Source: Perkinsus chesapeaki
Lineage: Eukaryota > Perkinsozoa > Perkinsida > Perkinsidae
Assembly: GCA_013115145.1 (NCBI GenBank)
Contig: JAAPAO010000038.1
Span: 1 to 64,000 of the forward strand
Direction: 5' to 3'
Length of the DNA: 64,000 bases
The notes under the pieces: generated by a model
Seen by the model: the letters and a program-made list of their open reading frames with translations, nothing else
What the model was told of the DNA's origin: nothing
Database searches by the model: none
Position numbers and translations under genes: made by a program
Shown: positions 403 through 51,851 of the stretch, in pieces
Position numbering within the stretch: position 1 is the stretch's first letter
Layout of the letters: every line of letters starts with the position of its first letter

Positions 403-1330
403 ATGGCTCAGCAATCTGGTGTGCCCGAGTTTAAGCTCTTGTTGGTTGGTGATGGTGGTGTTGGGAAAACCACTTTGGTGAAACGTCATCTTACTGGAGA
501 ATTTGAGAAGAAGTATATCCCCACTCTTGGCGTCGAGGTACTTAATCGATTTTTTATGTTGGTCATCAAGTTGACCTATTTTGTATCCTACCTGCTTCTC
601 GGAAAGATTCCACCTTTAGGTACACCCGCTGAAGTTCATGACCAACTGTGGTGAGATTATCTTCAACGTCTGGGATACCGCTGGCCAAGAGAAGTTCGGC
701 GGTCTTCGAGATGGCTACTACATCCAAGCAAGTGTCGTCTCCCCGACTAACTTGTCATTTCCGCATCTTTCAGGGCCAATGCGCTATTATCATGTTTGAT
801 GTCACTTCTCGTATCACTTATAAGAACGTTCCCAACTGGCATAGGGACATTGTTAGGGTCTGCGAGAATATCCCAATTGTTCTGGTGGGAAACAAGGTCG
901 ACGTTAAAGACAGACAAGTAGGTGGATGATTCTCGATATAGTGCGTTGTTACTGTATCTTACTTGCTCAGGTCAAGGCACGTAACATTCAGTTCCACCGC
1001 AAGCGTAATCTACAATATTATGATTTATCCGCTCGTTCGAACTACAACTTCGAGAAGCCCTTCCTTTGGCTTGCAAGGAGACTAACGAACCAGCCCCAGC
1101 TCGTTTTCCAGGTTAGTTTGGGGTGGTGGTTATACATGTTGTTTTGCACTCGAGAGGTCCTAGGGTCGATCCCCGTATGCGGTATTTCTGTAAACGTTTG
1201 TCGTTTCCTTTAGGGAGAGTTTGCCAAGGCACCCGAGTTCCAGATCAACCCCGAGCTTGTTGCCCAACACGAGAGAGAGCTCCAGGCTGCCCAAGACCAG
1301 GCAATTGACGATGATGATGACGACTTGTAA
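403..1330 (+). CDS. RAN: GTP-binding nuclear protein Ran
   Basis: Small GTPase that drives nucleocytoplasmic transport and spindle assembly. Exons 403-537, 620-727, 774-917, 971-1111 and 1214-1330 join in phase to a 214-aa protein, close to the usual 216. Visible motifs: P-loop GDGGVGKTT, switch [17 protein letters not shown] for guanine recognition, the Ran-specific stretch [20 protein letters not shown], and the acidic tail DDDDDL that contacts transport receptors. Start chosen at the first ATG, which aligns with Ran N-termini. Intron 2 starts with GC (GCAAGT), not GT. Intron 1 (538-619) holds family B repeat in reverse; intron 4 (1112-1213) holds a tRNA T-arm-like stretch. Function is very secure. 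Confidence 0.97.
728..773 (+). other. GC-AG intron 2 of Ran
   Basis: Only a donor GCAAGT at 728 keeps the reading frame from DGYYIQ to [10 protein letters not shown]; all nearby GT donors shift the frame. GCAAGT is the usual strong context for GC-AG introns. A second example is intron 1 of the ammonium transporter. Confidence 0.8.
1150..1178 (+). repeat. tRNA T-arm-like stretch in Ran intron 4
   Basis: The intron contains GAGAGGTCCTAGGGTCGATC, which reads like a tRNA variable region plus T-stem and T-loop (GGTCGATCC resembles a B box). Same type of insert as in TIM44, AMT, MAPK and LARP introns in this window. Confidence 0.55.
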
Positions 1331-1765
1331 CTGCTAAGTCGTTCGGTTGTCCCACAGATGACAGATGCATCGCGGGTGACAGTAACATTTCTTTCTCTTA
1401 CTTGTTATTGTGTTTGATGGCACAGAGTTGGATGGGGCAAACTGCTTGCCATTGAGATTAGTTCCCTCCGCTGGGGTTGGGTAGATTGATTACACTTTAA
1501 GGTGGTATAGATATCCTTAGCAACTCGTTTTTCGGGGTCTAGGAGCAACTAGGCTGGGCTGATGGAGTATCTTAGATATAGCTCCCCTATGCACAAACAG
1601 ATACATGCTTTAAAAGTTGGTCCTTACATTTCTACTAAGTGCCCGAGATTCACCTCAATGGGACGAGTTTGTTAAAGGGCAAGGGTCATCCGAGGACTCA
1701 TTTCTAATTGTAAAAGTACAGTACGAGAATATGTGGTTGGGTGTAGTTATTGTCCGTTCCGAGTT
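1331..1765. other. Intergenic, nothing recognised
   Basis: Downstream of Ran and upstream of the first kinase-like gene. No coding exon, RNA gene or repeat was recognised. Confidence 0.4.
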
Positions 1766-11573: not shown

Positions 11574-11602
11574 TTCCTTATGACGTGTTTATTGTAAATA
11601 GA

Positions 11603-11632
11603 TGGAGGTTTCCAAGTTGACCTGTTTTGTAT
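11603..11632 (-). repeat. Family B repeat after PTRH2
   Basis: On the minus strand it reads AGATACAAAACAGGTCAACT followed by TGG, matching the family B consensus seen in introns of Ran, the 75-aa gene and the cofactor-A-like gene. Here it is in the 3' flank. Confidence 0.6.
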
Positions 11633-11665
11633 CTAAGTATTAATTTGGGATGAGAAAGTGGTCAG

Positions 11666-13595: not shown

Positions 13596-13602
13596 GAGAC
13601 TT

Positions 13603-20478: not shown

Positions 20479-20887
20479 AGGGGTTATTAACCTGGGCTGG
20501 CCTCGAGGGAATTGGTAATGACAGCAGTTGACAAAAATAAGGCGGAGCGAAGCTGATGGGCGATATGGTTAATTGAAGAAATTCAACAAGAGTTCAAATG
20601 GAAATGAATGGTTTTATTGGGTGAACAGCATAGACAGTAGAAAACACAACGGTGGTGGTAGTTAAGTGTTGTAAGGTAAGAATCACAGAAAGTGTACGAT
20701 GCGATAGATGAGCAGGAACAAGGCGTTCGCCTAAGACCATCATACTCAAGGTTCCGGGTTCTATCCCACCACTCGTCATTTTACTAATCAACATATTTAT
20801 CAAACTTATCAACGAGGACAGCATTACTCAACTAGAACATCATAAACTAACGTTGGGTGTTTTTGTGACGCCATGACGTCCGACTCC
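20479..20887. other. Spacer with tRNA-like element
   Basis: Between TIM44 and the coiled-coil gene, both on the minus strand. It carries a plus-strand tRNA-like 3' half at about 20700-20775 (…AAGGTTCCGGGTTCTATCCC…). No coding exon seen. Confidence 0.45.
20700..20775 (+). repeat. tRNA-derived (SINE-like) element
   Basis: Contains GGTTCCGGGTTCTATCCCAC, which looks like a T-arm with a B-box-like GGTTCTATCC. The upstream part does not fold into a full tRNA cloverleaf by eye, so it is a relic or SINE rather than a tRNA gene. Confidence 0.5.
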
Positions 20888-23800
20888 TTACCAGCAGGGC
20901 TGGTTACCTAGGATGGCTATTTCTTGTACTCGCCACGGGAACTTCAATCCCTGATTAATAAACACCTTACTAACAACCACCACCATTATCAACAACAACT
21001 CACCACTGTGTTCGGCTCGGGATGTCTCTGAACAGCTAACGCATAGAACACTTGTCGAATGTCATCGATCGCCCCCTCGACAACTTCCCCTAAATTAAAA
21101 ATGCAATGCCACAATGTGAGGCACGATTTACCCTTTTCGTTGCGAAGGCAGTTGATCTGCTGCGTGCTGAAGGTGAAAATGAAACACGGAGAATCGACTT
21201 CGCCGCCCGACTTGGCGCCCTTCAGCTCGAGGTCCTCGGGGCCCTGTAATAAAATAGGCAAAGGTAAGGTATTGCTGACTTCACCTGTAGAATGGTCGGG
21301 TCCAAGGAGAGTCTCTGATTCTTTCGCGCCGCAATTGATGCATTGACAGCTGCAAAGGCGGCCTCTCCGCAGTGGAGCTTCAGGTCCTCCGCGTCACCCT
21401 AACACGCGGAATCAGCATGAACGCGGCAGCAAGAGTCACAAGAATTTCAGGCAAAACCATCAGGAGTTAACACGTGACCGGAAACCAATAAATTTGATAT
21501 ATTTGAAGTTGAGTGACTGGAACGACTGGAACAATGAAGCCTGCTGTCGGATGCATTTCTATCCACCTGCCACCAGGAACTAACAGGACTGCTTTTAGAC
21601 TGCTGATGGTCGAAAAGGCATAATAATGCGGCAGAGGCTGGAATTTATATTTTAGGTTATGTACATATATTTATTTTTCTATAATGGCTTTATTATATAA
21701 TTATTCTAGATCACCTAGTTGAAGTCTAGAGCCCTACCTCGAGGAACCAAGTTATGATACTGGGCGCCACAACAGCCTCGACATCCTCAACTAGCTGTGA
21801 GAGGCGGAAATGAGGATCGATCTCCTTCATTTCACGGATAGATTGGGAGATCTCCGTCTCACCGAAAACTCTGAAATTAAAAACAAATGGTCAGATCCGT
21901 TTTATGCAGTGTTTTTACTAGTGACCGGATCCTAACGCAAAGCAGCGAAGGCTAAGGCCGGTCCGAGGTGAGAGAGGCATGCCGTACGGAAGACTTTCAG
22001 TGAAGGATGTATTTCAAAGCCTCCTATCATAGGAAGTCTTGGAGTAAATAAAAGTGAACAGACGAAAACGAAGGCTTGGGCGAGGTTACAGGCCAACGAA
22101 GGGAAGTAGTCGAATAGCCGTTCTATGAGCAGCTTATGGATATCGGAAACATACTTAATGAGCCTATCGACAAGGTCAGCCGATTTAGTACTGTTGTTAA
22201 CAGAGACGGACAAAGTATTGATGATAACAGAGAGAGACTCTCATGAAAGAGAAGCCTTCTTGGAAGGAAAGATACGTTTGATAGGTCAGAGCGTGTGTTA
22301 ACTAATGTCTGTGATAGAGGAAATGCTAAAAACAGGCTGTTTTAAACAGCAGTGAACAGGCAGTCCGAGAGGGAAAGGAATGCTTCACCCTTGCCGTGGA
22401 AAGAATAGAACTGGGCTACCAGCTGCCAGCTGCGATACGGTATCTTTAACTTTATAAAATGCACGCTCTAACCTCCAAACACTTTCTAAGGTTCTATTCT
22501 TACCTATCGAGCATCGGATTGTCGAAGAAGCCTCCGAGGAATTTGGAGTCGCCAGAATCGCTGGTGTTGAATCCGAATCTTTCCCAAGTGGACTTTTGCT
22601 TATCAGAGACCACCAAGGCGTTCGCGTGGGGATGCTCCGGTATAGGTTCGGCCTGGAGACAATTAACGTGGCTTCACTGCTGACCGATGATACCACAAAA
22701 TACTCTATATAAAGAAGGTAGTTCCTTTGCCTAGCGCAAGGATAAATACTTGCACCATATAAGCGAATCAACTTCACCGAAAAAAAGTCGCGGGAGATGT
22801 CGCGCCCCACCGAGCATAAGCAAACTCCATACCACTACTTGCAGAGCTGCTGAGGAGCTGGGCAGTCGGAGGACATTCTAAATGCTAATCCAATCTATAC
22901 GAAATTTGCCCACAGCATTGTCGTGAGGTGAATAGAGAGATAAGTAAACATCTCCATCGTGGCTTACGTTAGGATCCTCCTCGGCGGCCTCCCTCAATTC
23001 CTCATCCTTAGCAGCTTGTCGGGCCGCCTGAACAATCGCTCTACCACACCGATGGTGAGCTGCTTTACCTCCTGTGAGCGTTGGAAGTCCTGTTGCCTCT
23101 TCTGAGTTGCCTCCTTGCTCTCTTTAGTCATCATATTTACAAATGCAGTGGTGCGGTCAAGAGCCTGATAAAAATGCGGGATGCCGGGATAGAACCCGGG
23201 ACCTTTCGACATAGGCATACCTTCACCCCAACCTTCTTAGCACTTTCTCCTGCCGACTTCATCCAATCAGGAACATGAACTGAACAAATAACATACAAAT
23301 ACAGCTTTTCCGGACAAATTCTAAACTTTCACCATGCACGCCAAATGTGGAGTTAGCGGATGTAATACGGAGGATAAGCATTTCGCTACCCTATCAAAAT
23401 TGGATTCCAGTATGGAGCCTCCATCCATTTCACTATCAAAGATAAATTCCAGGAAATATTGAAATGTCTTAGCCAGGGATCGAACCCACGACCGCCCATA
23501 CCTTGACTCAATCTAGATTGTTGCTTCCCCTCCTCTCCCGTGCTCTCCGAGTGAGGCATCTGTTTCCGAAGCTCCTCGAAAAGATGCTTCGTTCGTTGCC
23601 TGATATCACCGCCGCCATAATTTAGGTAATTTTCGTCCTATTCGAAAATCTTTACTGTGCGTTGGACATTTGCTGTCTCATTGCGCGCATCTTCGCCTCC
23701 TGAGCCTCCGCACGCGTGCGCAGCTGTTCGCCGGTATCCGACACCTACATATAAAGTCAGTTTCACGCGCCATGAAATACGAGAAACCAATCCAATTAAT

Positions 23801-24148
23801 CGCCAACCAATTCTCGAAATTGCATGGAAGGTAAACAGTCACGCGCCACGAAATTCCCACCCTCGTTTTCTTCTTTTCCATATCATCCAGAGCCTTTTTC
23901 AGTTCCGGATCGTCTTCAGCGTCCTTTCGTACTTGTTCCATTACCTACATTAAAAATGCCCCTCCCGCGGATCGAACCCACGCCCTTCCGATGCTTACTT
24001 GTCGGATAAATGACGATTCATTCCTCCGTGGCATAACAAAGACCGGCGGTGCTCGTGCAGCTCGAGACGCCATTGCACCTGTTGCTGCCAGCTGATTGGC
24101 AAATACCGAACTGCTGCAGCCGATGCAGCGACTTGCTTTACTGAGCAT
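20888..24148 (-). CDS. TIMM44: Mitochondrial import translocase subunit TIM44
   Basis: Tethers mtHsp70 to the TIM23 channel on the matrix side. Fourteen exons on the minus strand: 24148-23999, 23944-23861, 23744-23656, 23599-23502, 23279-23221, 23164-23069, 23027-22968, 22652-22504, 22481-22420, 21868-21738, 21398-21285, 21243-21132, 21089-21004, 20941-20888; total 447 aa, the usual size. The N-terminus (MLSKASRCIGCSSSVFANQL) is a matrix-targeting type, followed by a helical Hsp70-binding region and the Tim44 fold (VFGETEISQSIREMKEIDPHF, SPCFIFTFSTQQINCLRNEKG, EVVEGAIDDIRQVFYALAVQ, WRVQEIAILGNQPCW). Introns 1, 4 and 5 carry tRNA T-arm sequence; intron 2 carries two family A copies. The joins of exons 7-8 and 8-9 are the least certain. 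Confidence 0.93.
23165..23220 (-). repeat. tRNA T-arm-derived intron 5 of TIM44
   Basis: The whole 56-nt intron is little more than AAGGTCCCGGGTTCTATCCC with a donor and an acceptor attached. GGTCCC plus GGGTTCTATCCC resembles a tRNA variable region, T-stem and B box. Confidence 0.7.
23462..23502 (-). repeat. tRNA T-arm in TIM44 intron 4
   Basis: Right at the donor the intron reads GGCGGTCGTGGGTTCGATCC, a very good tRNA T-arm with canonical B box. The rest of the 222-nt intron is AT-rich. Coordinates given from donor to the end of the tRNA-like part. Confidence 0.7.
23745..23860 (-). repeat. TIM44 intron 2 with two family A copies
   Basis: On the minus strand the intron begins GTGGG followed by AATTTCGTGGCGCGTGAC and carries a second copy (ATTTCATGGCGCGTGA) about 60 nt on, near the 3' end. 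The motif recurs near the donor of introns elsewhere in the window. Confidence 0.75.
23945..23998 (-). repeat. tRNA T-arm-derived intron 1 of TIM44
   Basis: The 54-nt intron contains GGGCGTGGGTTCGATCCGCG, a T-arm with B box, starting about 15 nt from the donor. Confidence 0.7.
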
Positions 24149-27940: not shown

Positions 27941-30372
27941 CCTACTCCTCCCTTTATCGATTATCTCCGCCACTGGCCCCAGCTCCTTGTTGCCTCCCAC
28001 ACCCAGTGCCCAGTTGCCACCCACACAAGCATCATCTAGATACTTACCTGCGGAACCCATCTCAAAAACTAACCCGAGCAGACATTTGGGAGAATAATTC
28101 CCGCACGGTACAACGCAATGGACACGCTCCAACCTGAGATTCATTTTTCCGAAATAATAATTAATTCTTTGGATTGATCTGTGCACCGCCACACAAAATT
28201 TTCCCGAAAATTTCGGAATTTCACCGGCTCACATTTTTCCAGAATTCTACATAACAGTTCCCCTCCTCTTTGACCAACAGCACCGACAGCTCTCGCCTGA
28301 ACAGATCATATCAAAATCGTCACGCGCCCGGAAAATACCGATATTGAAGATCGCTCTCCTTTCTCCAAAGCCGCGACAAGTCTGTCGTATCCGACGTGAT
28401 TAAGAAAGTTTTGAAGCCCCTCATTCCCAAACTGATTGTTATCGATCCGCAGCTTCTCCAAAGCCCCCTTCTCTAACATAAGATATCGTACCTGATACTC
28501 ACCGTGTCACATTGCGCTAAAATCCACATTGAACTGACCATACGGACACATCTAGGATCGCGTGCAGCAGATTCAGACCGCCCTGAGATGCGCGTTAGGG
28601 ACTGGTGATTTCCTATCGAAGCTACTGGAGCCCAAATCTCGATTTAGTGTATAAGTGCGTACACCGAAGGCTAACGAGTATCGAATCATTGCTATACTAT
28701 TTTCAACACCAAGTGTCCCTCACCATCTTCCCGAGTATCCCTCCACCTTCCGCTCCCATCAGACCACACCTGCCGACGTTGAGGTAACTTAATGCTGGCA
28801 GCGTGGGATGGCATCTCGAAGATCGCACGGTGCTCTGCCGTTTAAAGGAAGGCTTCAATCGACCTGAAAGATTCCCGTTCGGAAATACCGGTACATGACA
28901 AAGAAATCAGATGGTTCTCTCAGCTAGTCCGGGATAGCAGACTAATTGATACATGTCTAAATTTTCCGATTCCATTTTCCCAGAAAATATTCTGAGGCGC
29001 TTCACAGAGAACTGTGAAGCTACTAACTCTCTGGTCTACATACCATAATCATCGTCTGACCATCTTAACATGGACGTACAAAAGAGCCTCCGGTACGTAA
29101 TTAATTCTCTTCACCGAAATGCAAGGCAGCCTAGCGGTAAAATACCCGACCATCAACCAGAAGGTCCCAAGTTCTATCCCACCCATTATATCTTTAAATG
29201 CATTATTTCCAAGCTCGCTATTATCACTCAAATCCAACCTCTTCAACTTTTCGCATCTTCCAGCCAATAAATCACCCAAGATCCGCCCACTGTCCAGACC
29301 CCTGAAAATGTGAAACAAAAATCGCTTCGCTCCGCTAGGTCATTCCATTCCTTACACGCCAGCCAGGTGCAGCACTTGCAAATTCGCAAATGTGCACCCC
29401 AACCACATCGACTGGCTTCCACTGCCGGCAACCGCACTTGGACCACACACGTCTATCAGCTCCAAATTAGCATCTTGCAGAAGAATCATAATCGATCAGG
29501 TGATCGATTTGGACTCCACATTATTACAATTAGCTTTCCCCACCAACAACATCACATTTTCTGGCGGTAAGCCACTCACTCTGAGCTTCCTCAAATTTAT
29601 CTTAGGTTCAACCGTGCATGTACCATCCGGAAAAGATTCCCCGACACCATCGGCCGCCAAATCGCTTGCTTTTCTTCCTCTAATATCCAACTAAGCCCAA
29701 AAGAACCATGCTGGGCGAGCGAAATTGTTTCGAGCCAAAACGAAATTAGCCGAATCCTCGCGGGCAGCCCTACCTCTTCAAGATTTGGGGATCTACCCAA
29801 TACTTCCCTCACCAATCCCGCAAACTCTTTCCGATCAAACGTCACTGCGCCACAAAAATCCCTTGCCGTCACGTCCACAATCAACCTGGCCAACTTCGGC
29901 AGGGAATCTTTTGCCGAGGTCAAAATATGATGCAAACCTTCCAAAGTCTGAAAATACCGAATCATTGCTACAAAAAAAATAAAGCTCTTGCGAGTATATT
30001 AAGAATAATTTGTCATCACCTTAAACTTCAGAAGAACCTCTGCGCAAAATAACAGCTGTGGTTCATACCAGAAAAACCAGATGCGCGCCCAAAATGAGTT
30101 TCGCCGCACACCTTGATCCTTCCGCTATACAGAACACTCCAATCCAGCACCATCTCACTACATTCTTCATCCTCAACGAAATGGTACACTTTCCATCGCC
30201 GACCTAAAAAGAAAAGTTGAGGAAACGCGAGAATGGCCAAGATTGCAAGATTTCCCATATTACCTTCCATACATAATCTCCTACAAGATGGACTTGCCCC
30301 TCCAAATCTTAGAATATCTTTCGAGTCCAAAAACTGCGCCAAAACCTGACCATCCGACCCTGACTCAGACAT
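27941..30372 (-). CDS. F-box-like / leucine-rich-repeat protein
   Basis: Starts at 30372 with MSESGSDGQVLAQFLDSKDI, an F-box-like opening (LDSKDILRFGGASPSCRRLC). Later minus-strand exons carry ribonuclease-inhibitor-type LRRs: SLPKLARLIVDVTARDFC, NLEEVGLPARIRLISF, INLRKLRVSGLPPENVML, CEKLKRLDLSDNSELGNNAF and ALEKLRIDNNQFGNEGLQNF. F-box/LRR proteins select substrates for SCF ubiquitin ligases. Some introns are clear, including one starting with family A at 28342-28300 and one with an antisense tRNA-like piece near 29182-29119. Exact exon borders and the 3' end are approximate; two genes are possible. Confidence 0.6.
29119..29182 (+). repeat. tRNA-like element in LRR-gene intron, antisense to gene
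   Basis: On the plus strand: an A-box-like CAGCCTAGCGGTAAAA, an anticodon-arm-sized middle, then AAGGTCCCAAGTTCTATCCC (T-arm/B box). This is the most complete tRNA-like layout in the window, and lies opposite in sense to the host gene. Confidence 0.6.
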
Positions 30373-31690: not shown

Positions 31691-33121
31691 TTAAACAGAT
31701 GACTAACAACTGAGCAATAACCCTGCTCGCTAGACACGGTGATCGATAAGGAATAACGACAACTACAATCTCCGACTAAGAGTGTCCCTGCCAGCGACTC
31801 GCTGGACGCTTGGTGGCTGCTGCCCCCAGATCAGATCCGATGGCCTGTCCTTCCTACTTCACTCCTTACAACCCAAGCATCTTCCTTCACTTACTTCCTT
31901 ATTATGTTTTCGAACGATGGCTCGGCGATAAAAGCACCCCTAACAAATTTCATCCGGTATCGTTTTGAAAACAACCATGATTATCACTTGGATCCCACTT
32001 CTCAGAGATAGACTACAAATAATATCCTACAAATCCCGACCTCTCCCACCAAACGCAAGCTTCAACCTAAGATACCATCTATCCAGAAATAGCCTCCAAT
32101 GGTGGCACATCACTCTCATCATAGTCACCATGTGTTCCCCTCTCAACTTCCTTTAATAAATCATCATCATCGTTATTAACTATCCCCAAAGATACGCTCT
32201 TACTCAACGGCAGCTGCTTCGCTCCGCTAGAAATGACACACTTCTCTTCCTTCTCAACTTTAGACGATCTAGTCGGCGGGAAATTCTAAACACAAGTAGA
32301 ATAATAAGCACCACTCGCCTCTTTATATTTTACTAATTTAACTACTTCCCCATATGAATCCAGAAAGAGCTCCCTTTCAGCACTAGAAGCTCCCCTCGGC
32401 ATCCAAACAGGCAAACACACATTGCCATCGTTCCAATCGCCCCCTAGTAGGTCTATCAGTTTGCTGAATTTGAAGCTGTAGAACTGTACCACCGAGCTCG
32501 AGAGGTCCTCCCGAGACACGCGCTATCATTTCGAATTCTTCGGAGCGTATAATATTCTGACAAACATTATCACCTTCGCTCCGTCTTTTTCAGCTTTCTG
32601 CTCGGCGGCCACTCGTAACAGGCCAGCCCTGTCCGCCCGGGGCATTTCGATTCTAAGTAAAACGTGACGGGATCGAACTCACGACCTTCCGCTTTAGGAG
32701 CAAGAATACTAACCTACTGCTCTATCCTTACCTTAATGCACCAGTTGTCTTACTTCGCTTTACCGACGATGCATCCACAAGAACTTCACAAGGCGTTCTC
32801 AACTGAGTTAACTTATCCTTTATTATACACCTGCGATGATACCGTCATATCAGGTGTCGAGTCACTAGCCTTCCACCTAACTTTTTCAGTCAAAGAAGAA
32901 AATTAGAACAGAAAATTACCCACAGTAAAAACACGATATTTTTTTCACCCCTAACATTACCAAACGTTAAGCAATATACCTCCGTAAAGGAGAGCGTGCA
33001 GCCTCTACCAGAGCCGAAGAGCTCTCTACGCCTTAGAACCCTAGTTGAACACAGACCACACTTCTTCCAACCCAAAGCCGCTCCACGCTCCATGTTAACA
33101 TTTCCCTCCTTCGACCCGCAC
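31691..33121. other. Unresolved; includes tRNA-like element
   Basis: A minus-strand open stretch 32519-32286 (SKLIDLLGGDWNDGNVCLPV…) may be an exon of an unknown gene or of the downstream end of the DNAAF11-like gene. A tRNA-like element lies at 32660-32735. Nothing else recognised. Confidence 0.3.
32660..32735 (-). repeat. tRNA-derived element
   Basis: On the minus strand it has a D-arm-like GATAGAGCAGTAGG, an anticodon-arm-sized segment around TTGCTCCTAAAGCGG and the T-arm AAGGTCGTGAGTTCGATCCC. The anticodon stem does not pair well, so it is more likely a SINE head or tRNA pseudogene than a working tRNA. Confidence 0.55.
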
Positions 33122-35662
33122 CTTATATAATTAGGTTGAACATCCACATCTATTAAACTGGTATCCAAGTAAGCCGGCACATCGATCTCAATCACCACCA
33201 TACCGGGACTTCCAAACTCGTCAATATGGAAATTATACTTTCCTTCATTGCACTGCCGTATCTGATCCCAAAGGTCCCAGGTTCGATCCCCGGTGCCGGC
33301 GTTTTTATATATTATTCTCATTCCACAATTCTAATGTTCCCATCCGTCTAAAGCCATAAGTAGTATACCAAACTCTTCAACATAAATCTTCGGAATCGAC
33401 GATATCGATCAACCGTTTCATGCCACTATTTGTCCGACAGCCACCAAGATGGTTCTCGCTAATTCGCTTGGAAGTAAACAAGACAATACAGAAGACATAC
33501 CACTGGTCAGCCATAAAATAGACCGTCACGCGCCACAAAATTACCCCTACCTCCCCTCTATGATTCAATGCCTCCGGTATCACTCGTGGTGGCTTCGGTT
33601 CAATTCCTATACAGCCACTACAGCGGAGCGAAGCGATTCACGTTTGCCATTTTTATTACCCAGCCTTTTCTTTTCCCTTTTATCCTTCTCCTCTTTAACA
33701 GCCGCCTGCTCCCTATACATCTCCAACCGTGACTCTTTCGTGTACGCATCTGATAGCTATAATGGAGAGATAACCAAACATCGACATATGGGAGCCCCAA
33801 CCAGAGCCAGCAATTCATTCTTCACAATTTAGAAAATCAATTTCACCATACAACGCCGCAATGTTAACACAAGTAGCAATAAATACTATCCCCAAATTCC
33901 CACTTTAACGGGATCGTCGGATCGAGTATAATGAAGAGTTTTCAAACAGTGAGATTGACACTGTAGATGCTACGGGCATTAACATCAAGCCCATCCTCTT
34001 TGATAAGTCTCGAGCGCTACTTGTGTACACTGCCCCTCAATCCCCCTCTCTGTTATAACCTTTGCTCGGTTTAATATTATTCTCCATTTCATATTTCTTC
34101 CGCTTTATTGAAACATCTGCGAGCTTTTCCAACTCCTTCTCCAACTTACTGATAACTCTGTTCGCCTAATAAATCCTTCTTCGACCTAAGATACCCTTGC
34201 GCATGCGTGCAGATACCTCGATCCTTTCAGTGGGAGTGATCAACGTTCCATCAAGCTGCAACAAGCTCGGCAGCCTCGCTACTATATACTGCCTGCCAAA
34301 GCCCTTATCAGCTCGAGATTTGGGAGAAATATGGTGTAATTAATTCGCACCTCGCTTTCGGCCAATCCATACATGGGTTCCCCAACATATACAAATCCTC
34401 TAAATTATAATTGCACTGAAAATCAAACTCCCGCTTGCGCATGCGTGCAAGCTACCTCCAAATTAGTGATGGAGTCCTTTAGATTTTCGATGTCAATAAA
34501 ATTAACCGTCAAGTCCAACTTCCTCAAACTCTCGCAACGATCCAAGCCTGAAGCAACCAGCTCAACGACAATGATACTACTGCTACTCCGCAGCGGTAGG
34601 TTCTCAAAACAAAGCCCGAGAATAGTAATAACGACTGCGAAACTGCATAAAACGCATCACGTTTATATTACAGCTCGCATGCCACTATACTGTTTTACTA
34701 CGCACAGGCTATCACAGTGGCCGAGTCTCTATGGAAAGTGCTTACTATATCACACAAAGCCATAAATTAATAAAAACTACGCTTGTCACAATTTCAAAAA
34801 TAACGAATACGATTTCTTAACAGTCCAGCACGATAAAACCCAAAACCCAAAACCCGTTATTATTACGGCGAACCTGGCTAACCGACTTCTATCCCGATCC
34901 CCGCCATTATTACCTTCGATCTTGTCTATATTGTTTAAGGCAACATTAAGATATTCCAGTTCCTTCAATTTATTAAGATTCTCCAGCTTACCAATAACAT
35001 TATTTTGAAGTAACAATATTCTTATTCTTCGACATCTTTCTCCCAAGCATTTATCTATACTTTCAATCTCTTCTTGATGGAGAGCTACCTAACACAGCCT
35101 GCGGAACCTTACTAAGGACGGCGATAGGAGCCCCATCACAGCACAAGGTCTTGTCCCCAATAACAACAACAACATATTGCACGATTCGTTCTGACGCAAA
35201 AATTACTATTGCAAAGAAATCTAATTAATTCGCCTCGCACGTAACTACTACTTTAGGGATGCACCCTGACTAAGCAGCAAAGCCCAAACTGTGGGTTCTC
35301 AGAGGTTACCCAGCTAACCTCGAGTGTTTTCGGCCCCTTTCATACCCACCCAGGGCAATCTCACAATCAACGCCCCTGCACTCGTTAAGTCGGCAGAGTA
35401 ATTCAAGAACACTGCTGATTCAGCAGTGCTGAAATGCATGTCACAGCTAGGGTCACCTTCACAGCTCAAATAGTGGAGAAACCAGTTCATAATAAGAATT
35501 AAATAACAAGCAATAGCCTCGAACTCCAATCTCCAGAATTCCATATTATAGACTACAACTAGGTTACTCGGTTAACCGATAGCATACCTCTTCTAGATCA
35601 GCCAGAATCCCCTCGTTATGCTCCGCTCGTTTACGAATAAGCTCCTCAGTCAAAGGAGGCAT
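33122..35662 (-). CDS. DNAAF11: Dynein axonemal assembly factor 11 (LRRC6/TILB)-like
   Basis: Cytoplasmic factor for preassembly of axonemal dynein arms. Exon 1 (35662-35588) MPPLTEELIRKRAEHNEGIL is the typical LRRC6 start. Exons 35088-34914, 34547-34456 and 34415-34351 carry the LRRs (RIRILLLQNNVIGKLENLNK, LEYLNVALNNIDKIEG, LRKLDLTVNFID, DLYMLGNPCMDWP). A helical region follows (NRVISKLEKELEKLADV; ESRLEMYREQAAVKEEKDKR). The last recognised exon, 33242-33122, is a CS domain with the diagnostic YLDTSLIDVDVQPNYIR. The exon 4-5 junction and the 3' end are unresolved. Its presence implies motile flagella, as in zoospores. Confidence 0.85.
33262..33300 (+). repeat. tRNA T-arm in DNAAF11 intron, antisense to gene
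   Basis: Plus strand CCCAGGTTCGATCCCCGGTG is a textbook T-arm/B box with AAAGGTC ahead of it. It lies in the intron before the CS-domain exon of a minus-strand gene. Confidence 0.65.
33430..33550 (-). repeat. Family A intron in DNAAF11
   Basis: The intron after …EALNHRGE starts GTAGGGGTAATTTTGTGGCG followed by CGTGACGG, with family A ten bases from the donor. Edges approximate. Confidence 0.65.
34835..34855. repeat. Three AAAACCC units
   Basis: Three perfect copies of AAAACCC (TTTTGGG on the minus strand) in DNAAF11 intron 2. The unit resembles a telomere repeat, but the array is very short. Confidence 0.7.
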
Positions 35663-36993
35663 TATCAAAAATACTAAACTGACAGGACCTCTATACCCTG
35701 TAAAGTTAACATCGTAGAGGAGGAAACGGTATGAGAATCAATCAAAATTTACATGCCGAAAACTCTGTATAAAAGAGCGAAGAACATAGCGGCGCCTGCA
35801 CCAAACATCGCACTATTACCTAAAAGAGAAACAGTGAGAACGCCGTCGTTGAACAGGAAAAATATATCACGAAATATTCGAGCGAAAATTGTTATGGAAA
35901 AGGACCACGCGCAACCAGCTACTACCAAGGGCCCTCATGAGGGTCTCTGGCCTGCCACTTCCAACGGGAGTAGTTGCATTGGATTTAGGATGCCACCAAT
36001 ACCTAATAATACACCCCCTGGGATTCGAACCATAAACCATAGGGTGCAGAGCCAGTAGTACTATCCAACTAGACTAAAGTCCCTCTCATATTACACTCCT
36101 CCAGAATCAGCATCCTTGATAGGCAGCCATGCATCCTCTTCCTTCGCCCTCTCAACAACCTCCTCAGGCACCTTATCCGCCTCATATAGCTTATTCATCT
36201 CATCAGGCGTCCACTATTCAAGAGCCATTTGCACCCATGCACACGATAGCATAATTACCGGACGATTGGCTTCTGGCGGCGATTTGTATACCAATGACCG
36301 CTTCCTATTTTCCGTACAGAAATACCTCCCGCTGGCCACATTGCGAACCACCCAGGCTCTGCTGCTGCTCCTCCGAAATGCACTGAGCCCCACAACACCT
36401 ATGACGAGGTATGTTACTCATTACCACGATGGCTGATATGGCTACACCGGCAGCTCGATAGAGAGTAGGCTATCGTTGATAAGTTTATACTGTCGGTCCC
36501 AAAAGAATTATGGACGTGAAGATATCTCACAGAAACAGTATTAAAAGATACCCTCTTCCTCGCCAAGAGAGCCGTCATAGTAAATCATCACACATAAATA
36601 TATATTATTTTCCACATTATTACATTCCCACCACAATGCTTGGAGGCGGAGGAATTGGTATCAGGAAGCCTACTGAAGAGAAAGCCAACAAACCCCGTCA
36701 CCACTTTTCCCAGCATCGCCCTCTTTTACGTATTAGACTCAGAAAGATACTAGTGTTTAGACGCAGAAATAGATGAAGTCTGAAATATCGAGAGTTCGTA
36801 GTAAACATCAATCATAACAATTTCATCGATAATAACTATCCCAACCTACCTGCCTTTCTCCGCAGCATGGTGAATAGAGAAAAACAAAAATTTAAAACAT
36901 AAAACGCTTCGCCCCGCCTAAAGAATTATCAAGTTACAGCAAATGCGCAAGATAGATATCGGTATTTTCCGTCTTCGTAGCGTCGCTTTGAAA
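35663..36993. other. Intergenic between divergent genes
   Basis: Between DNAAF11-like (-) and the 75-aa gene (+). Apart from the tRNA-like element at 36005-36080 nothing was recognised; open frames here lack motifs. Confidence 0.4.
36005..36080 (-). repeat. tRNA-derived element
   Basis: On the minus strand: CTTTAGTCTAGTTGGATAG (A-box-like D-arm), an anticodon-sized middle, and TTTATGGTTCGAATCCCAGG (T-arm/B box). The anticodon stem is degenerate, so I call it tRNA-derived rather than a tRNA gene. Confidence 0.55.
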
Positions 36994-37446: not shown

Positions 37447-40400
37447 ATGCTGACGAGCACAATGTGGAGGATCCTTACCGGTGCGATGATAATGTTCATG
37501 CAGGCAAGTTCCCTCCCTCCCTCCGAACAAGGGGGGTCTTCTATTATATCTTGCCATGAGATCTACAGAACACTTCTGGCCTCTCGCTTTAGCATTAGTA
37601 TGCTCGAGATTCAAAAGTTCGATGTCGTGCCTGCCGCTCGTCCAACTGCCACCGCAGCGGCCGATACTTTCGTAGGTGTTAATTACCCTCTCCTTAGGCC
37701 GGTTTTGCTATGCTAGAGGCAGGCTCAGTAAGAGTGTTCAATGTTCAAGCCATCCTGATGAAGAATCTACTGGACGTTTGCATCAGTAATAACTTCATCA
37801 TATCCTACTACTAACATCATCATCATTAGGTCCGCTGGTCTGGTGGCTCATGGGATGGGGCATTGCTCTCGGATATACTACCGATCCCACAACTGGTGAT
37901 CTAACAAGTGGATCACAGTTCGCTGGTAAGCAAAAGGTCCCCGGTTCAAACCCGAGCCATGACATATTTTCTACCGTTAGGATTGCTACTTCAGTTTCAA
38001 CCTCAAATTCGCCAACCTATGAATTCCCAGGCTTCTATAGCTTATCTAAACAATTTAAGACTCACTGAAACCAACCCACTCGGATCTCTCGCGAATTTGT
38101 GTCTCATGGAATCTAGTGACTTAGAATTGTTTATTAATAATTTATCAACCTCAGGTGGCAGTGGTTTCGCTGGCACTGGCCTCACTGAATACTGTGTTGA
38201 ATTCGACTCAACCACTGGTGACTGTATCGATGAATCACCAACCCCTATCGGAATGCCCAAGTTCCACCCCGATGAGTTCTTCTTCTTCTGGACCTTCTCA
38301 GCAACAGCTTCGACAATCGTCAGTGGTGGTGTGGCTGAACGAGTACATTGTACTTGATAATTTCCTGGCGCGTGACGCTTCCTTGTTCAGGTCCGTTGCT
38401 CTTCCTACTTTTTATTCTCTTCGCTTATGTCTGGTTTTATCTATCCCATTCTGGTGGCGTGGCTCTGGAGCGGTCACGGTTGGCTCAGCAAACCCGCTGA
38501 TGGCATCGATGCGGCCTACTACGACTTTGCTGGTGAGAATAAATGATAAATCCCTCTTCGTTAAATATTCCTCAATGATTCTCTCTGACATGCGCCCGTC
38601 CAGTTGAACACCTCCTAACGCAGTCACTTGAGATTTGATTCCCCAATCGTTAAATGTGGGGCTTGTGTCGGGTTTTTGAAACATGCGGACAAAACCGGTA
38701 TTATCACCTTCAGGTTCTGGAGTGGTACATTTGACAGGAGGTGTAGCAGCCTTGGTTGGAGCTAAGATTCTCGGACCTCGAAAGGGACGCTTCGATGAGA
38801 TGGTCGATCAGACGGAGTTTGTCCCACATTCAATTCCACAGATTGTATTGGGTAATGCAACAATCCCGGGTTCGATTCCCACGCCCTCCGCTTTTAGGTA
38901 CATTAATTCTCTGGTTTGGATGGATTGGCTTCAACGCTGGTTCTACCAGTAGTATGGTATCCATAAGCGATGCCAACAAGGCAGCACGCTCCGCTATGAA
39001 CACTGTTCTGTCGGGAGCCTCGGGTAAGCACCTTGAACTGATTTTGAGAATGGCAGATTCGTCGAATTCGTTTATATTCTTCAACTTGCACCGTGTCTTT
39101 CTATCACAACAGTAGTGTCCCTGATGAGTCGTCATTGTAGACTAGTATGACGTAACCAGGTTACTACGCGACTCACTGCAATTTGTATTGAGCCGGATTC
39201 GTCATGGATACTACATCCTCACGAAATAGGAGACTGTCGCTGTAGCCGAGTGTGTTGCGAGCTCTAAACTGAAGTACCACCGAGTAGAATCCAAAAGAGC
39301 AAGAGATAATCTCAGTTGTACTGTTTGCTTGAGAGATTCGTGTATCTAAAGGAGTGGTACATAAAGATGCTTGTAACAACTTTATTGATATATAACATAT
39401 ATAGAAATGTGAAGAGATTATATTATATATAACGTATGATAAAGTAATCTCTTCGTATTCCTAACTCGACGATCGTCACTGTAATCTATCGACTCCTATC
39501 CCCTCAGGTGGCTTCACCCTCTTTGTCATCCGTCTGGTATTCTTCAATATGTACGACGTTGCTGGAGTCTGCAATGGATGCCTCGCTGGATTGGTAGAAG
39601 CTATCCCTCTTCATTACCGAACATATCGATATGATCAACTTGTCAGGTGTCCGTCACTGCCGGATCGGCTAATGTCACGTCATTCAGCGCCATAATCATT
39701 GGCATCATCGGAGGATGTCTGTAAGATCAACTAACTCGATTGTCATAGTAGATGAGGCATGGGTGGACTATAAATGATCATGGGCGCAACAGGAACCCTT
39801 GAATCGATCACTGGTTGACTGCTTGATCCAGATGCGCAACTTCTGTGGTCAACTTCGGGGTTGAATATACGTGACACTAATTGCGGAGCAAGCGGAGCTT
39901 ATTATCTGGAAACGGATCATTTCGCCGTGCCGTGCGTACGAATTATTTCCCGATAACCAGAGCGAACTAGCTGACAGTCTATACACGAAAAGATTTCCCT
40001 TTGTCTGAGAATACCTAGAAAATTTGCAAACTTTGAAAACTACGGTGTGTTGAGTAGAAGCGGAAAAGCCTTTTTTGCGGAAAATGCAGCCTGTGGGATT
40101 CGAACCCACGACTTCTTCTCTAAATCGTTTCCATGCGATTTGATCACTCGCTCGCACCATCAAAGCGATAGGCGACTGATGACGAAGAAACAATGAGCAA
40201 ACTAACCGCTAAGCGAGCTCCGTCATCACGAAGCCTAGTATATATCGTCTGATTAGTATACAATTCTCGCGCAGCACTCCTCCTTTCACCGGGCAACAGC
40301 TACAAGCCAGTGTAGGAGTTCAGCTATGCCGGGGGGGGGGGCTGACTCACTCGTAAAAGGCCACTGAGCAGCAGCAGCCCTATGGAGTGTTATGCCCCCA

Positions 40401-43594: not shown

Positions 43595-46697
<3,103 letters not shown>

Positions 46698-47335
46698 CAA
46701 AAGTAAAAAGCTGACCAAGCACACGACGTTTCTAAAGTCCACGGTTTTCCCTTCACCAAGGGCCATCTCATCCCGTCATACCGCCAGGAGACTCTTTAGG
46801 AAGCGGTCGCTTTGCGGTGCCAGCTATAATAAAATTGATGATTCACTCGGCAATCACCTATGTCATAACACACAGTGTGGACATATACTGCCTTTCATCA
46901 ATTGTTGGTGAGGATGGAAAATTTTCGAAAAAAAATTATCGAACAAGTTACATTTTCTACAGCCATTCGAGTGACTTTACCGCGAACAGATATTTCGAAA
47001 GTATTATTCCGTAATTGAACCACTGTAAACACTGAAGGCTCTATCAGCTTGAAATGGTTATTACTTCTCTTCTCCTTTTTATTGAAGCTCTGGTAGTACT
47101 GTTATCAATACTGCATATCATCTACTATTATTATTATCAACCACTACTCCTCGGTCGCCCTAGGGACCCTCCATCAGACAGCAGCGAGTTATGTAAAAAG
47201 AAGAATAACAAAATAAAGCTCTTTAACGGCGGCGGCGGTTCAGCCGATAACAGCAAAGTACAAGGAAGCCAGCAAAAAGGGGAAGGAACACACACAGGAG
47301 CCGCCTGTCGAGTAGCCGACTATTCACAGCGGTTC
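46698..47335. other. Intergenic, nothing recognised
   Basis: Upstream of the kinase and downstream of the first LARP-like gene. An in-frame ATG upstream of the kinase start exists at 46766; the region may include a 5' exon. Confidence 0.35.
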
Positions 47336-49396
47336 TTATTTCGCCGCAACCGCGGGAGCTGCGGTCGCCGGCGCCTCCTCCTCAGCCTTAGGCTTCTTCT
47401 GAGTGGCGGCATGGAACCACTCCCGATTAGGGGTCTTGCGGAAGACTCCTTCGCCAAGTTGCTTCTCGATCTGATTGCTTATTAATGCTACTCCGCCATT
47501 ATTAACCGTATTTTTATTACCTTCACCATACCATCCGGCTTATACAAGGCTGCCGACTTCATCCCATTACAGATATCCTCTATCTCCTTCCGAGAGTACT
47601 TACGATACTTATAACTGTACTTGGTCTCGTCACCAGTGATTTCCGGATACTTCTCCTGAGGCAGCGGAAGTAATCCAAGTACACCGTCGAAACGCTTGAA
47701 AGGGCCAGTTTGGTCGAACATTTTGCGCTTCGGAGAGCCTATGTAACTCTTAACGGTGGGTCTAGTGTAGAACAAAGAGTTCGTCGTAAGGGAGTAAAAC
47801 TATACAATATACGACGACGATAACTGAATAACTCACGCTGAAGCCTGACTAACTCACTGAACGATAAGCCTCCCCTCGAACTAATATTTCCGAACCGCCG
47901 CTTACTAACCTTAATCTCCTTCTCTGTTTCCGGTACACTAGCTGGCGCCACAGCAGCAGGGCTCTTGTGCTCCTGAGGCGGTGGGCTACTAAGACTGTAG
48001 GACACCACAGCAGAATCCATCTCAACAGCTGGCACTCCAGCGGCGGCCATCTGATGAATCCAACAACAATACTAACAGCAAGAATGCCTATATGTATCTA
48101 CCTGAGGCATCATCTCCGACTCAGGGTACTTAAGACCATAGGACACCACCGCGGAGTCTACCTCAACCACGGAGATCCTACTGCCGTACTAAATCAATAC
48201 AACAGTCACGACCGCCGCGACACAAAGAGCTGTCCCCACCTGCTCGACAGGGCCGCCATTCATCCTCCTGCCCTTCCCCTTGCCTTTGCCCTTACCCTTG
48301 CCTACCAAAACTCATACCAAACTTTCCACAACTTTATTACCTTTTCCCTTGCCACCCTTTCCCTTCCCGTGATAGAAGCCGAACTCGTCCATACCGGCAT
48401 AAGGGTTGTAATTGTTATTGTTATACCTGACAGAGCCATCTCCGACGGCAACGCCCCCGCTACTACCCTTGAGGATTGCTTGCTTGAGGCTTGCCGTATC
48501 CAAGAGCACCTGATCCAAAGATTCTCACTGCGCCACGAAATTCATGGACTAGTACTGGTAGGAGTGCGAGTTGTTGCTGTGGGTTTCTGGGCTTTGTCGA
48601 GATCAGGGAAAAGTGTAAGCATGAAATGCTCAGCCTTGACCGCTGTATGGATTGGGTTGCCATTATATTTCTGATTTCTTAGCCAAAGTGCAACATTCTC
48701 ACATTTATCTTCAGTAGTAAATCTAACATACCTATTATTAAATAATAATAAAGATACTAAATAGGTTAATAATGTTACCAATGATCATTAACATCTGGAC
48801 GAATATCAACTATATCTTTATCCATATCACATGGAGCATCTTTCAATACACAATTCTTGAAATCATCTACTGTTAATGACTTCGAATCGACATCTCTAAA
48901 AATACATAACCAAGAATCGAACCCACGACCTTTACATTACAAGACCGCCGCTCTACCACTACCTCACAATTAGAGTTGTTCTCTGCTGGAATTCAGGTAA
49001 GCAAGGCTTCACCATGGTCTTCGTAGCATCCAATGCCACCTTATCCGACGGGACAGCCGACAACACATTGGCGACTTCCTCAGGGGTAGTGTTGAGCTCG
49101 GATATAGTGCCGAGGCTGATCGACGGAAGCTTGTGATCCACCAGCTTCAATAGACCACTTACTTGAATAGATCGGCGATGGGCAAATACATCTGTGAGTT
49201 CATGCTCGACACCAGAGACGGCTCTTTCTGACACCTCTAGCCATACAATATAACCAATAGTATGCCGACCTACCCGAAGATTGTCCTTGGATAGAACACG
49301 TTCTACTGTTGATTTAATAAGGTCATTCCTTTTAGCCTTCTCCTCTGCCCCCTCCTGAGCGGTGGTGGCGGTGGTGGTCTTGTTATTATCTTCCAT
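47336..49396 (-). CDS. La-related protein, LARP4-like, copy 1
   Basis: RNA-binding protein, probably of mRNA poly(A)/stability function. Minus-strand exons in phase: 49396-49274, 49227-49163, 49115-48963, 48895-48779, 48731-48550, 48509-48467, then further ones to the stop at 47336. The La motif is NDLIKSTVERVLSKDNLR / KEPSLVSSMNSQMYLPIADL / LGTISELNTTPEEVANVLSA. The RRM follows: RTTLIVRDVDSKSLTVDDF … WYVRFTTEDKCENVALWLRN … YNGNPIHTAVKAEHF, like the LARP4 pair of domains. The tail has NPYAGMDEFGFYHGKGKGGK, Lys/Gly repeats, VEVDSAVVSYGLKYPESEM and a conserved GDETKYSYKYRKYSRKEIED block. Intron 1 ends with family D; intron 3 is tRNA-derived; the intron at 48549-48510 has family A. Confidence 0.85.
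48594..48967 (-). repeat. Near-identical LARP tract, copy 1
   Basis: 374 bp matching 51059-51432 at a constant offset of 2465 with about five substitutions by eye. It spans the RRM exons, two introns and the tRNA-like element. Flanking exons of the two genes are clearly diverged. Codons in the tract are AT-rich. Confidence 0.9.
48896..48962 (-). repeat. tRNA-Thr-like intron 3 of LARP copy 1
   Basis: The donor lies inside a tRNA: GTAGTGGTAGAGCGGCGGTC is a D-arm with A box, CTTGTAA is a Thr(UGU)-type anticodon loop, and AAGGTCGTGGGTTCGATTCT is the T-arm. The 3' side of the anticodon stem (TGTAA) no longer pairs with GCGGT, so this is a relic that now works as an intron. Confidence 0.75.
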
Positions 49397-49860
49397 TATT
49401 ATATTATCTCAGTTTGATAAAAGCAGTACAACGGCGGTATTGAAAACCTCAAATTCGGAGAAAGAGGAAGAAGCTCCGGGATGTACAAGTTACTGAAGCA
49501 TATACAACATTCTCACATAACCTTCCACGCATCTTGCACGCTCAACCTAAAGATACCTCCCACACCACCATCCAGCCCACACCTCGAAGCCAACGACAAT
49601 CGCGCGCGCCCAGTTGATCGATTTGTTCCGCGCGACCGACTGCAACGCAAATCTGCCTCCAGCTGGTTGAAAATTTTAGTTATTGTTGTATATGAATCAT
49701 TATTGATAATATAAAACCGTTAGGACTATTTCATTATCGCCGCCGCCACCGCCGCCGCCATCATAAAGGTATTATTCCTTTTACCCGAAGGGGTGGACGA
49801 CGGCGGCTGGGGGGGCGATGTACAGTAGAGGTTGTTATTAACTATACAAACTGATAATGT
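49397..49860. other. Spacer between LARP copies
   Basis: No coding exon recognised; low-complexity (CCGCCG)-type sequence near 49740-49760. Confidence 0.4.
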
Positions 49861-51851
49861 TTAGGAAGCTGCCGACACCTTAGGTGCTTCTGGCTTCACT
49901 GCCGGAGAGGCGGTGGCTGCTGCTGACGATGATGCCTTGCGGCCTCCTCCGCCACCAGTCGCAACTGGACTGCCTTCGACAATCCACTCCCTGAGAAAAG
50001 CAATCAACAGCGTAGCTGACAGCTCTCATCTACCTGTTCGGTTTGTCCCGAATCAAACCTTCACCCACTTGCTTTTCGGCCTACAAACGTTGGATAAACT
50101 ACCATCGAATGAGGGCCTTACTTTGACCATTCCCTCCGGCTTGTAGACCGCTTCGGCTGGCATGCTTTCGCAAATCGATTCGATCTCCTCTTTAGTATAC
50201 TTTCTGTAATCGTACTTGTACTTCGTCTCATCACCAGCGAACTCGGAAGGATCAATGATCTAAGACCGAAACTGCCAGTGATGAGTCCATCATCCTCGGA
50301 TGGTCACCTGTTCGACGGGTTCATGGGGAGCCCCACTGCTGCTCATGCGCCTCCTGCCTCGACCACCTTTACCTATACAGCAGATATCCAGCAGGTCTTT
50401 AGGATAAATGCTATGAAATTTCAAGCCGCTAGTAGAGACTGAAGTTCCACTAATCCTTCCAATACAATCGTCGAGCGGCACACAGTTATCAGCGAATTAG
50501 AAGTGTGGGAGAGTTGTGTTATTATTATTGTCAAAGCTTAGTAGATCAATTTGCTGAGCAACCACTCGCGTTTTCGTATACCACTAGATAGATCCTGATA
50601 AACGCCCTATGTTGGAGAGACATCTATATGGATGATTTGAAGGAAATTTGGTATTATTGTTAAAAGCTACGAGTCCTACGCCTGTAATACAGGAAATGAC
50701 GGGAATTGGGTATTATTAAACTAAATATTGAACAACCACCGTACACAAAGGGCTATATTTCAAATAGGAAGGATTAGCTTATGGATGATTACCTTTTCCC
50801 TTTCCCTTGCCCTTAGTTGCTGATGGATGGTAATAACCGTACTGGTCCACACCGGCATAGGGGTTATACGAGCTATATCTGAGCAGGACTAACTGTGCTC
50901 AGCGATGAAGCCGTCCCTATTACCCCTGATATGGTGTAGTCGCCGGCGAACTCGGTGTAAAGGCTGGACTGCCGTAATCTATTGAAAAGGAGTGGGAGAG
51001 AGGCGTGTCGGAAATAGGATGGCTACTCAGGGCAGGCGAGGGGTATGCTTCAGAGTTCTTGTCGAGATCAGGGAAAAGTGTAAGCATGAAATGCTCAGCC
51101 TTGACCGCTGTATGGATTGGGTTGCCATTATATTTTTGATTTCTTAGCCAAAGTGCAACATTCTCACATTTATCTTCAGTAGTAAATCTAACATACCTAT
51201 TATTAAATAATAATAAAGATACTAAATAGGTTAATATTATTACCAATGATCATTAACATCTGGACGAATATCAACTATATCTTTATCCATATCACATGGA
51301 GCATCTTTCAATACACAATTCTTGAAATCATCTACTGTTAATGACTTCGAATCGACATCTCTGAAAATACATAACCAAAAATCGAACCCACGACCTTTAC
51401 ATTACAAGACCGCCGCTCTACCACTACCTCACGATGACTGTTGTCCTCAACTGTAGATCGGGAATAATGGGTTTGATCTGTGTTTTAGTAGAATCCAAGG
51501 CCACCTTAGACGACCCCAATGTCGTTATCGCATTGGCTATCTCTTCCGCTGTGGTATTGAGATCTTCTATAACCTTCGAGCTGCGCATCATAATAATTCA
51601 TACCACTCTTCCCCCAAATAATTACTTGAAAAGGCTGTCCAAACTCATGTACATCTGCGCGTTCATACGGGCAGCAAATGTCTGGTTGGACTAACATAAC
51701 CCCAACTTAACCTTCTCTGTATCATGCACCCTTCTACCTTAAGATACTCCTTCGACAGCACTCCCTCCACCGCTGTCTTAACAGCTTCCAACTTATCCTT
51801 ACCAACCTCTTCCGTCGGCTTCACCTTTTCGTTCTCTTCGTTCTTATTCAT
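49861..51851 (-). CDS. La-related protein, LARP4-like, copy 2
   Basis: Tandem paralogue of 47336-49396. Starts at 51851 (MNKNEENEKVKPTEEVGKDK), has a La motif (KLEAVKTAVEGVLSKEYLK…), then the RRM encoded by the near-identical tract (WYVRFTTEDKCENVALWLRN), and the C-terminal block GDETKYKYDYRKYTKEEIES with YKPEGMVK, ending SAAS at 49861. Exons outside the tract are diverged, and the exact splice pattern between 50900 and 50260 was not fully resolved. Confidence 0.8.
51059..51432 (-). repeat. Near-identical LARP tract, copy 2
   Basis: Partner of 48594-48967, including a second copy of the tRNA-Thr-like intron at about 51361-51427. Confidence 0.9.

Follow-up and report, generated by a model that had tools for sequence, protein, structure and literature searches.

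Short predicted introns resembling the 3' halves of tRNA genes in Perkinsus chesapeaki

The 64,000-nucleotide stretch of Perkinsus chesapeaki DNA analyzed here (contig JAAPAO010000038.1, positions 1 to 64,000; hereafter the window) contains, within introns of several unrelated genes, a sequence that resembles the T-arm and B box of a transfer RNA (tRNA). This raises the question of whether these introns were built from the 3' halves of tRNAs, as was claimed in an original prediction made from the letters of the window, which spoke of an introner family derived from tRNAs or short interspersed nuclear elements (SINEs). It is probable that many of the short predicted introns are indeed 3' halves of tRNA genes; their likely mode of insertion is as 5'-truncated retrocopies, and the tRNA half itself is predicted to supply the signals by which they are spliced out. 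This reading is carried by the anatomy of the sequence, its repetition across the genome, the preferred GT and AG offsets, the sense orientation of these signals and the protein homology that is restored at several junctions.

The T-arm sequence is much more frequent than expected by chance. The B-box/T-arm 18-mer has 10 matches in the window at up to three mismatches, where 0.02 are expected, and at up to two mismatches it has 388 copies in the assembly (35.4 Mb in 884 contigs) versus 0 for the reversed control. A position-weight scan, the score model of which was built from copies picked by motif, finds 14-15 elements in the window versus 0-0.4 in dinucleotide shuffles, so that the excess over shuffled DNA on which the original prediction depended is present. 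Applied to two further stretches of 40 kb each, the same scan finds 9-11 elements on contig C168 and 3 on contig C1; with a cut-off score of 9 there are 27 elements in the combined 144 kb versus 0.00 in shuffles. The 144 kb (the 64-kb window, C168:60-100k and C1:100-140k) were not drawn at random, the window being where the finding was made and the C168 stretch including a listed 18-mer place; the C1 stretch includes none. Scaled to the genome, these non-random stretches correspond to about 6,600 elements and the C1 stretch alone to about 2,700; the number genome-wide is likely in the thousands. No tRNA is found in the window by cmscan with Rfam, even at E<=10, nor by ARAGORN when introns are disallowed. 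When introns are allowed, ARAGORN calls one tRNA-Pro at 37836-37965, a chimera of an exon of the ammonium transporter gene (AMT) and a T-arm element, which stands as a warning for annotation.

The anatomy of the element was studied in 84 non-tRNA copies, obtained from 106 sites (at up to three mismatches) after removal of 22 that ARAGORN called as tRNAs. These sites came from 60 regions and 8 loci, taken from 100 listed places among the 388 matches to the 18-mer; six listed tRNA-gene places, nearly all places beyond contig C306, and the window copies (L045-L048) were left out, and the set is biased toward well-kept T-arms. The copies share one order, namely an A-GGTC variable loop, the T-arm, a stretch at the position of the 7-nt 3' strand of the acceptor stem, and a T-run at fixed spacing. 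In the 7-nt stretch, the first four bases carry 0.03-0.15 bit and are followed by GG[CT]A. This layout is the one expected of the 3' end of a tRNA gene, with a putative discriminator A73 and a putative RNA polymerase III (Pol III) terminator. A pattern that fixes only GTC-N21-GGCATTTTTAG has five matches, all of which carry the T-arm though it is not fixed in the pattern, and for this reason the tRNA-like layout is not merely an effect of searching with the T-arm. A second pattern, fixing AAAGGTC, TTCGA, C61 and ATTT, is found at 51 places versus 0 for the control, and bases left free in this pattern are conserved among them (G52 in 50, G53 in 51, and C62 in 40). Between loci, similarity is confined to positions -12 to +38 of the T-arm in 870 of 958 matches; L057 and L077, which lie in different genes, are 95% identical over 40 nt, and L063 and L076 are 87% identical over 45 nt. 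A tRNA-like 5' half is present in seven of the 84 copies (about two are expected by chance), and therefore the family is strongly 5'-truncated. Strong 5' truncation is the usual sign of reverse transcription from the 3' end.

The splice signals occur at preferred distances from the T-arm and on its sense strand. In 47 of the 84 copies a 5' splice-site pentamer lies in the 20 nt ahead of the T-arm, compared with 4 on the opposite strand and 5 in a control interval, and in the 27-element set the corresponding numbers are 11, 2 and 3. Donors peak at -10, where 14 copies have one and 0.5 per position would be expected; minor clusters lie at -13, -4 and -3, and YAG peaks at +36 (11 versus 2.6 expected). 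The donor at -10 and the acceptor at +36 define a 46-nt GT..AG unit, GTAAGSGAAAGGTCGTGGGTTCGATCCC-YGG-NNNN-GGCATTTTTAG, and copies that are off the preferred offsets recruit a GT or AG close by. In the short class, the ends of the unit match the ends of the intron, as judged from the donor at -10, the YAG at +36, the limits of homology and the junction checks. In the shortest units, A58/A59 of the T-loop is the sole adenosine at the usual branch distance (read by eye). This last observation, together with the retention of the B box while the T-stem and the acceptor vary, would also be expected if the GGTTCGANYCC block were a motif that perkinsid introns conserve for splicing or as a branch site, or a selected TFIIIC site, and not a sign of mobility. 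Such an explanation is very unlikely, given that the full tRNA register is retained (AGGTC in the variable loop, an acceptor of 7 nt, A73 and the T-run), that a long tRNA-Thr copy exists, and that other introns of TIM44 and AMT lack the block, some of them having ordinary branch motifs (read by eye).

The removal of these units was evaluated at the protein level with 20 spliced peptides, of which six have a Pfam domain across the junction, one (L070) has repeats beside the junction, and 13 gave nothing usable. The six spanning domains are kinase, DnaJ, FkbM, topoisomerase I and AMT, all above the cut-off, and XPG_N, which is below it. In the kinase, a 40-nt unit splits NI/VHRDIKPS (the slash marks the junction), and 40 residues align on 40 profile positions; the DnaJ junction is restored as EAYA/VLRDPDKR, and the topoisomerase I peptide reaches 71.4 bits. 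L070 has two prenyltransferase repeats, the better of which precedes the junction, and at L106 the donor at -10 is unsupported by the reading frame. An open-reading-frame test (59 of 76 open on both sides) carries no weight here, since openness was itself the criterion for choosing the splice pair, and a home-made gene finder was discarded because its intron predictions were far too numerous. The restored homology fits the predicted excision of the 40-56 nt units as introns. These units are almost wholly element, in line with the earlier claim that the smallest introns are little more than a tRNA arm with splice sites.

The same junctions bear on the idea that tRNA-like SINE copies landed in pre-existing introns, which would make the resemblance between intron and element incidental. 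Some elements do lie in longer introns (TIM44 intron 4 and AMT intron 9), and some are antisense. For the short class, this idea is contradicted, given that introns of 40-56 nt that are almost all element leave no space for an older intron; the 40-nt intron of the kinase is too small for a pre-existing intron plus an insert. Donors and acceptors at preferred T-arm offsets speak against it as well, and overall we regard it as highly improbable.

The elements of the window are collected in Table 1. The closest named proteins are those of Perkinsus olseni, at 62% for a PI-PLC-like protein and 80% over 131 residues for a partial TIM44. The sense element that had been placed at about 1150-1178 of the Ran gene lies in a 102-nt intron; Ran homologs from the PDB align across the exon junction, with a single gap of one residue nearby. 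Exact removal of TIM44 introns 1 and 5, both sense, is backed by the gap-free TIM44 of P. olseni, which reads SSFIRQVMEQVR (P0027) and SAKKVGVKALDRTTAF (P0025) uninterrupted across the two junctions. For the 46-nt AMT intron at 38852-38897, also sense, joining the flanks gives a peptide that aligns with Ammonium_transp 182-234 (54.3 bits), and MEP2 aligns gap-free across the junction. The two 67-nt LARP introns (48896-48962 and 51361-51427) are likewise sense, and there the support consists of the open frame. The elements proposed outside exons at 20700, 32660 and 36005 are present (scores 17.7, 19.7 and 14.8).

Other sites were proposed in a form that had to be revised. At TIM44 23465-23501 the element is real, and the predicted intron is about 222 nt (23280-23501) instead of 37 nt. 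The site at AMT 37926 has a sense element in an intron that is either 55 nt or, more likely as judged by the frame, 229 nt (to 38154). The MAPK site (44115-44141) has a sense element with candidate intron ends. AMT 40085-40180, DNAAF11 33262-33300 and the LRR gene at 29119-29182, all proposed as introners, hold elements that are antisense to their genes (gene strand read by eye), and a possible DNAAF11 site at 33588-33610 is absent among the window places scoring at least 6.5. The claim that tRNA 3'-half introns recur in unrelated genes is thus sustained by motif statistics, splice offsets and junction checks, and narrowed by three antisense sites and by one or two sense sites in introns longer than 200 nt.

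Table 1. Elements resembling tRNA 3' halves in the window; scores are those of the position-weight scan.
Feature	Position	Strand	Score	Observations
Ran intron, 102 nt, tRNA 3'-half element	1112..1213	+	24.6	T-arm from 1156; homology
Element outside assigned genes	20740..20785	+	17.7	
TIM44 intron 5, 56 nt, tRNA 3'-half element	23165..23220	-	26.9	
TIM44 intron 4, predicted 222 nt, T-arm element near 5' end	23280..23501	-		exact 18-mer 23476-23493; 3' end inferred from frame and P. olseni homologs
TIM44 intron 1 (54 nt), consisting almost entirely of a tRNA 3'-half element	23945..23998	-	28.4	
Weak tRNA-like element, antisense to LRR gene	29153..29198	+	6.9	
Element with GTAAG at -45 and AG at +34	32653..32731	-	19.7	79 nt GT..AG
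tRNA 3'-half element, antisense to DNAAF11-like gene	33263..33308	+	29.9	gene strand read by eye
Long tRNA-like element	36003..36083	-	14.8	best 5' match tRNA-Gln among tRNAs compared
AMT intron 3 region, tRNA 3'-half element	37926..37980	+	21.6	GTAAG at -10
AMT intron 6, 46 nt, tRNA 3'-half element	38852..38897	+		donor -10, acceptor +36; homology
AMT intron 9 element, antisense within long AMT intron	40078..40123	-	26.1	no donor-like pentamer upstream
MAPK-like gene, tRNA 3'-half element	44100..44140	-	20.4	possible 41-nt GT..AG
LARP intron (67 nt) with a long element like tRNA-Thr, from D-arm to T-arm	48896..48962	-		tRNA-Thr(UGU) match; frame open across junction
Second LARP copy, same 67-nt intron	51361..51427	-		two loci 87% identical over 239 nt

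Near 37504, AMT has an apparent GC-AG intron (CATGCAG/GCAAGTT, read by eye). Ammonium transporter paralogs at C113:18815-20023 and C757:7740-8879 can be read through most of the domain with no intron, and the window copy has many. TIM44 intron 6 (23028-23068, minus strand, 41 nt), the removal of which is backed by P. olseni RSQE/AARQ, includes a D-arm-like GGTGTGGTAGAGCG and is a possible case of an intron from a tRNA 5' half. In the 144 kb, A-box motifs are at most weakly enriched (GGT[AT]?AGAGC 12 versus 5.4), and the idea of 5'-half introns was dropped.

The position of the preferred donor points to a particular tRNA. The GT at -10 coincides with anticodon bases 35-36 and is followed by A37 and A38. 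A tRNA with an NGU anticodon carries GUAA there natively, and in the -10 class the GTAAG donor would be made up of anticodon bases G35-U36 plus A37-A38-N39, which tRNA-Thr, with its NGU anticodons, has by itself. When 41 sequences (one a chimeric tRNA-Pro) were compared with the 14 copies of this class, tRNA-Thr in that register took all of the first eight ranks. The long LARP copy provides independent support for this parentage, being identical to tRNA-Thr(UGU) at 39 of 46 positions without gaps, D-arm and anticodon loop CTTGTAA included; its 5' part scores 42 for Thr versus 32 for the next amino acid, and 0 of 100 shuffles equal this. The LARP donor lies by frame in the D-arm (-32), not in the anticodon. 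Given that other long copies are closer to Gln or Val, more than one tRNA parent is likely. Genes for tRNA-Arg(TCT) are clustered at L012 and L015-L017 (contigs C328 and C440), with units of about 300 nt on C328.

Several results weigh against introns made from tRNA halves, or against their assignment to tRNA-Thr. The ranking of Thr is partly circular because the class was chosen by its GT at -10; with the first five bases omitted, Thr(AGU) and Val tie at 24/34, and the comparison set covered just 12 real tRNA classes. The exact -10/+36 pair is found in just 4 of 41 paired copies (plus AMT intron 6 of the window), the offsets being preferred and not fixed, and a YTNAY branch motif is present in 7 of 38 introns. 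RNA folding of these 38 introns, in which two LARP rows used an internal GT instead of the frame-supported donor, is nothing special (mean z -0.2). T-stem bases 49-51/63-65 vary without covariation above permutation (p 0.15-0.21 overall; best single pair 0.06), and with no Rfam tRNA match in the window there is no sign of a tRNA-gene cloverleaf. Since the B box and the ends are conserved but T-stem pairing is at chance, the conserved part appears to be the B box with the ends of the element, not a working tRNA arm; the absent covariation rules out that the T-arms are maintained for tRNA function. The acceptor heptamers look random between two conserved blocks, for which a single master copy does not account. 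Several subfamilies discerned by eye (CCCTGGTRRRGGTA, CCCGGCACNYGTCA and CCCGGGGAGGGGCA) may be the best account of them; a weak hint that the 7-mer is copied from or complementary to the flanks (10 versus 4.2) was no longer conspicuous in a stricter test. Target-site duplications are not in excess at 41 junctions (three of which, both LARP copies and 32686, used a donor other than the likely one), where a direct repeat of 7 nt is present at L059 (0.06 expected), and looser flank tests give no excess of direct repeats either. Finally, a search of the genome itself with 31 joined junctions, one of them trimmed one base too early, returned only the junctions themselves or the twin LARP copy, with no empty site.

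The lack of excess target-site duplications is what would be seen if the copies moved as introns, with the excised tRNA-derived intron RNA reverse-splicing into other transcripts and being copied back into genes, where it would land precisely and without such duplications. This is the main rival explanation, and the mainly sense orientation of the donors and the homology between loci, which mostly ends near -12 and +38, agree with it. It is nonetheless unlikely, given that antisense and D-arm-bearing copies occur, that donor offsets vary (-3/-4, -10, -13, -32 and -45) as in 5'-truncated retrocopies, and that the exon flanks lack a strong proto-splice sequence (read by eye). For the preferred origin as 5'-truncated retrocopies, a candidate enzyme is encoded at C843:4724-6595, where endonuclease and reverse transcriptase domains occur in one open 1150-aa frame that resembles a long interspersed nuclear element (LINE) and could make such copies.

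Sequence-similar introns are found at non-homologous positions across many genes, and the family is filed here as an introner by its anatomy, with gain by insertion being what we infer from this repetition in one genome. It is not classed as a SINE because two defining features, a Pol III promoter with A and B boxes and target-site duplications, were tested and not borne out. The tRNA/SINE origin that had been proposed is therefore retained in part: the B box agrees with it, while the rarity of the 5' half, a T-run in place of an A-rich or LINE-derived tail, and the lack of excess duplications do not.

According to the proposed mechanism, Pol III would transcribe elements like tRNA-Thr and other tRNAs into RNAs ending in U; a LINE-type enzyme would start reverse transcription of these at the 3' end, and most copies would end within the anticodon arm or the variable loop. 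Insertions into exons would persist if they are in sense and start at the GTAAG of the anticodon or beside a GT, and would hence be spliced by the ordinary spliceosome. The T-run of the Pol III terminator would act as the polypyrimidine tract, with an AG shortly behind it, and A58/A59 of the T-loop may be the branch point, about 23 nt from the AG in the 46-nt unit. Copies that are antisense or non-exonic (in the window, three antisense ones and three unassigned ones) would form the remainder not selected for splicing. A more tentative proposal, which we hold to be somewhat short of probable, is that a tRNA-Thr half is a ready-made intron (GUAAG donor from the anticodon and A37-A38, branch point in the T-loop, and tract from the terminator), that its retrocopies made thousands of introns, and that this is the first introner class of Pol III retroposon origin.

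The origin of introns is a long-standing question, and known introners are mostly attributed to DNA transposons. If true, a tRNA half that brings its own splice signals would be a retroposon route of simple logic, with a unit of only 40-46 nt; genes would thereby have a novel means of acquiring introns, one that could account for intron gain in perkinsids. In the titles, openings of abstracts and passages covered from the literature on introners, intron gain, tRNAs, SINEs, retrotransposons and Perkinsus, with most subscription papers outside the coverage, no tRNA-derived introner was found.

SINEs derived from tRNAs have a tRNA-related part with a B box, are dispersed at high copy number, and have an A-rich or LINE-like tail. 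The family described here is alike in its tRNA-related sequence with a B box, its high-copy dispersal and the presence in the genome of a LINE-type endonuclease and reverse transcriptase, a candidate partner; it differs in that 77 of 84 copies lack a tRNA-like 5' half, the element ends in a T-run, and target-site duplications are not in excess.

The lengths of the introns are normal for the group, given that introns of P. marinus range from 39 to 1622 bp and are mostly below 100 in the available text of PMC3101222. Sequence-similar introns are also described for the stwintrons of Hypoxylaceae (PMC9024468, PMC8469720) and for introners of Alternaria, without target-site duplications or terminal inverted repeats in the latter (PMC9860276), and a relation to tRNA is not reported in the accessible parts of these sources. 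Introners have been surveyed in 175 genomes (Gozashti et al. 2022, PMC9860276), and most are described there as consistent with DNA transposition, with target-site duplications and terminal inverted repeats in some families; the words tRNA, SINE and Perkinsus do not occur in the available text. Compared with the introners of that survey, as far as its text could be accessed, the unit here consists of a tRNA 3' half, carries Pol III signals and shows no excess of target-site duplications, and what is shared is that similar introns occur in unrelated genes, that the unit equals the intron, and that splice sites are partly carried and partly recruited. The introner elements of Amoebophrya (Farhat et al. 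2021, PMC7789003, accessible in part) carry both inverted and direct repeats and use non-canonical splice sites, whereas the introns described here are GT-AG and have no excess of junction repeats; the two are alike in being invasive short introns of related alveolates.

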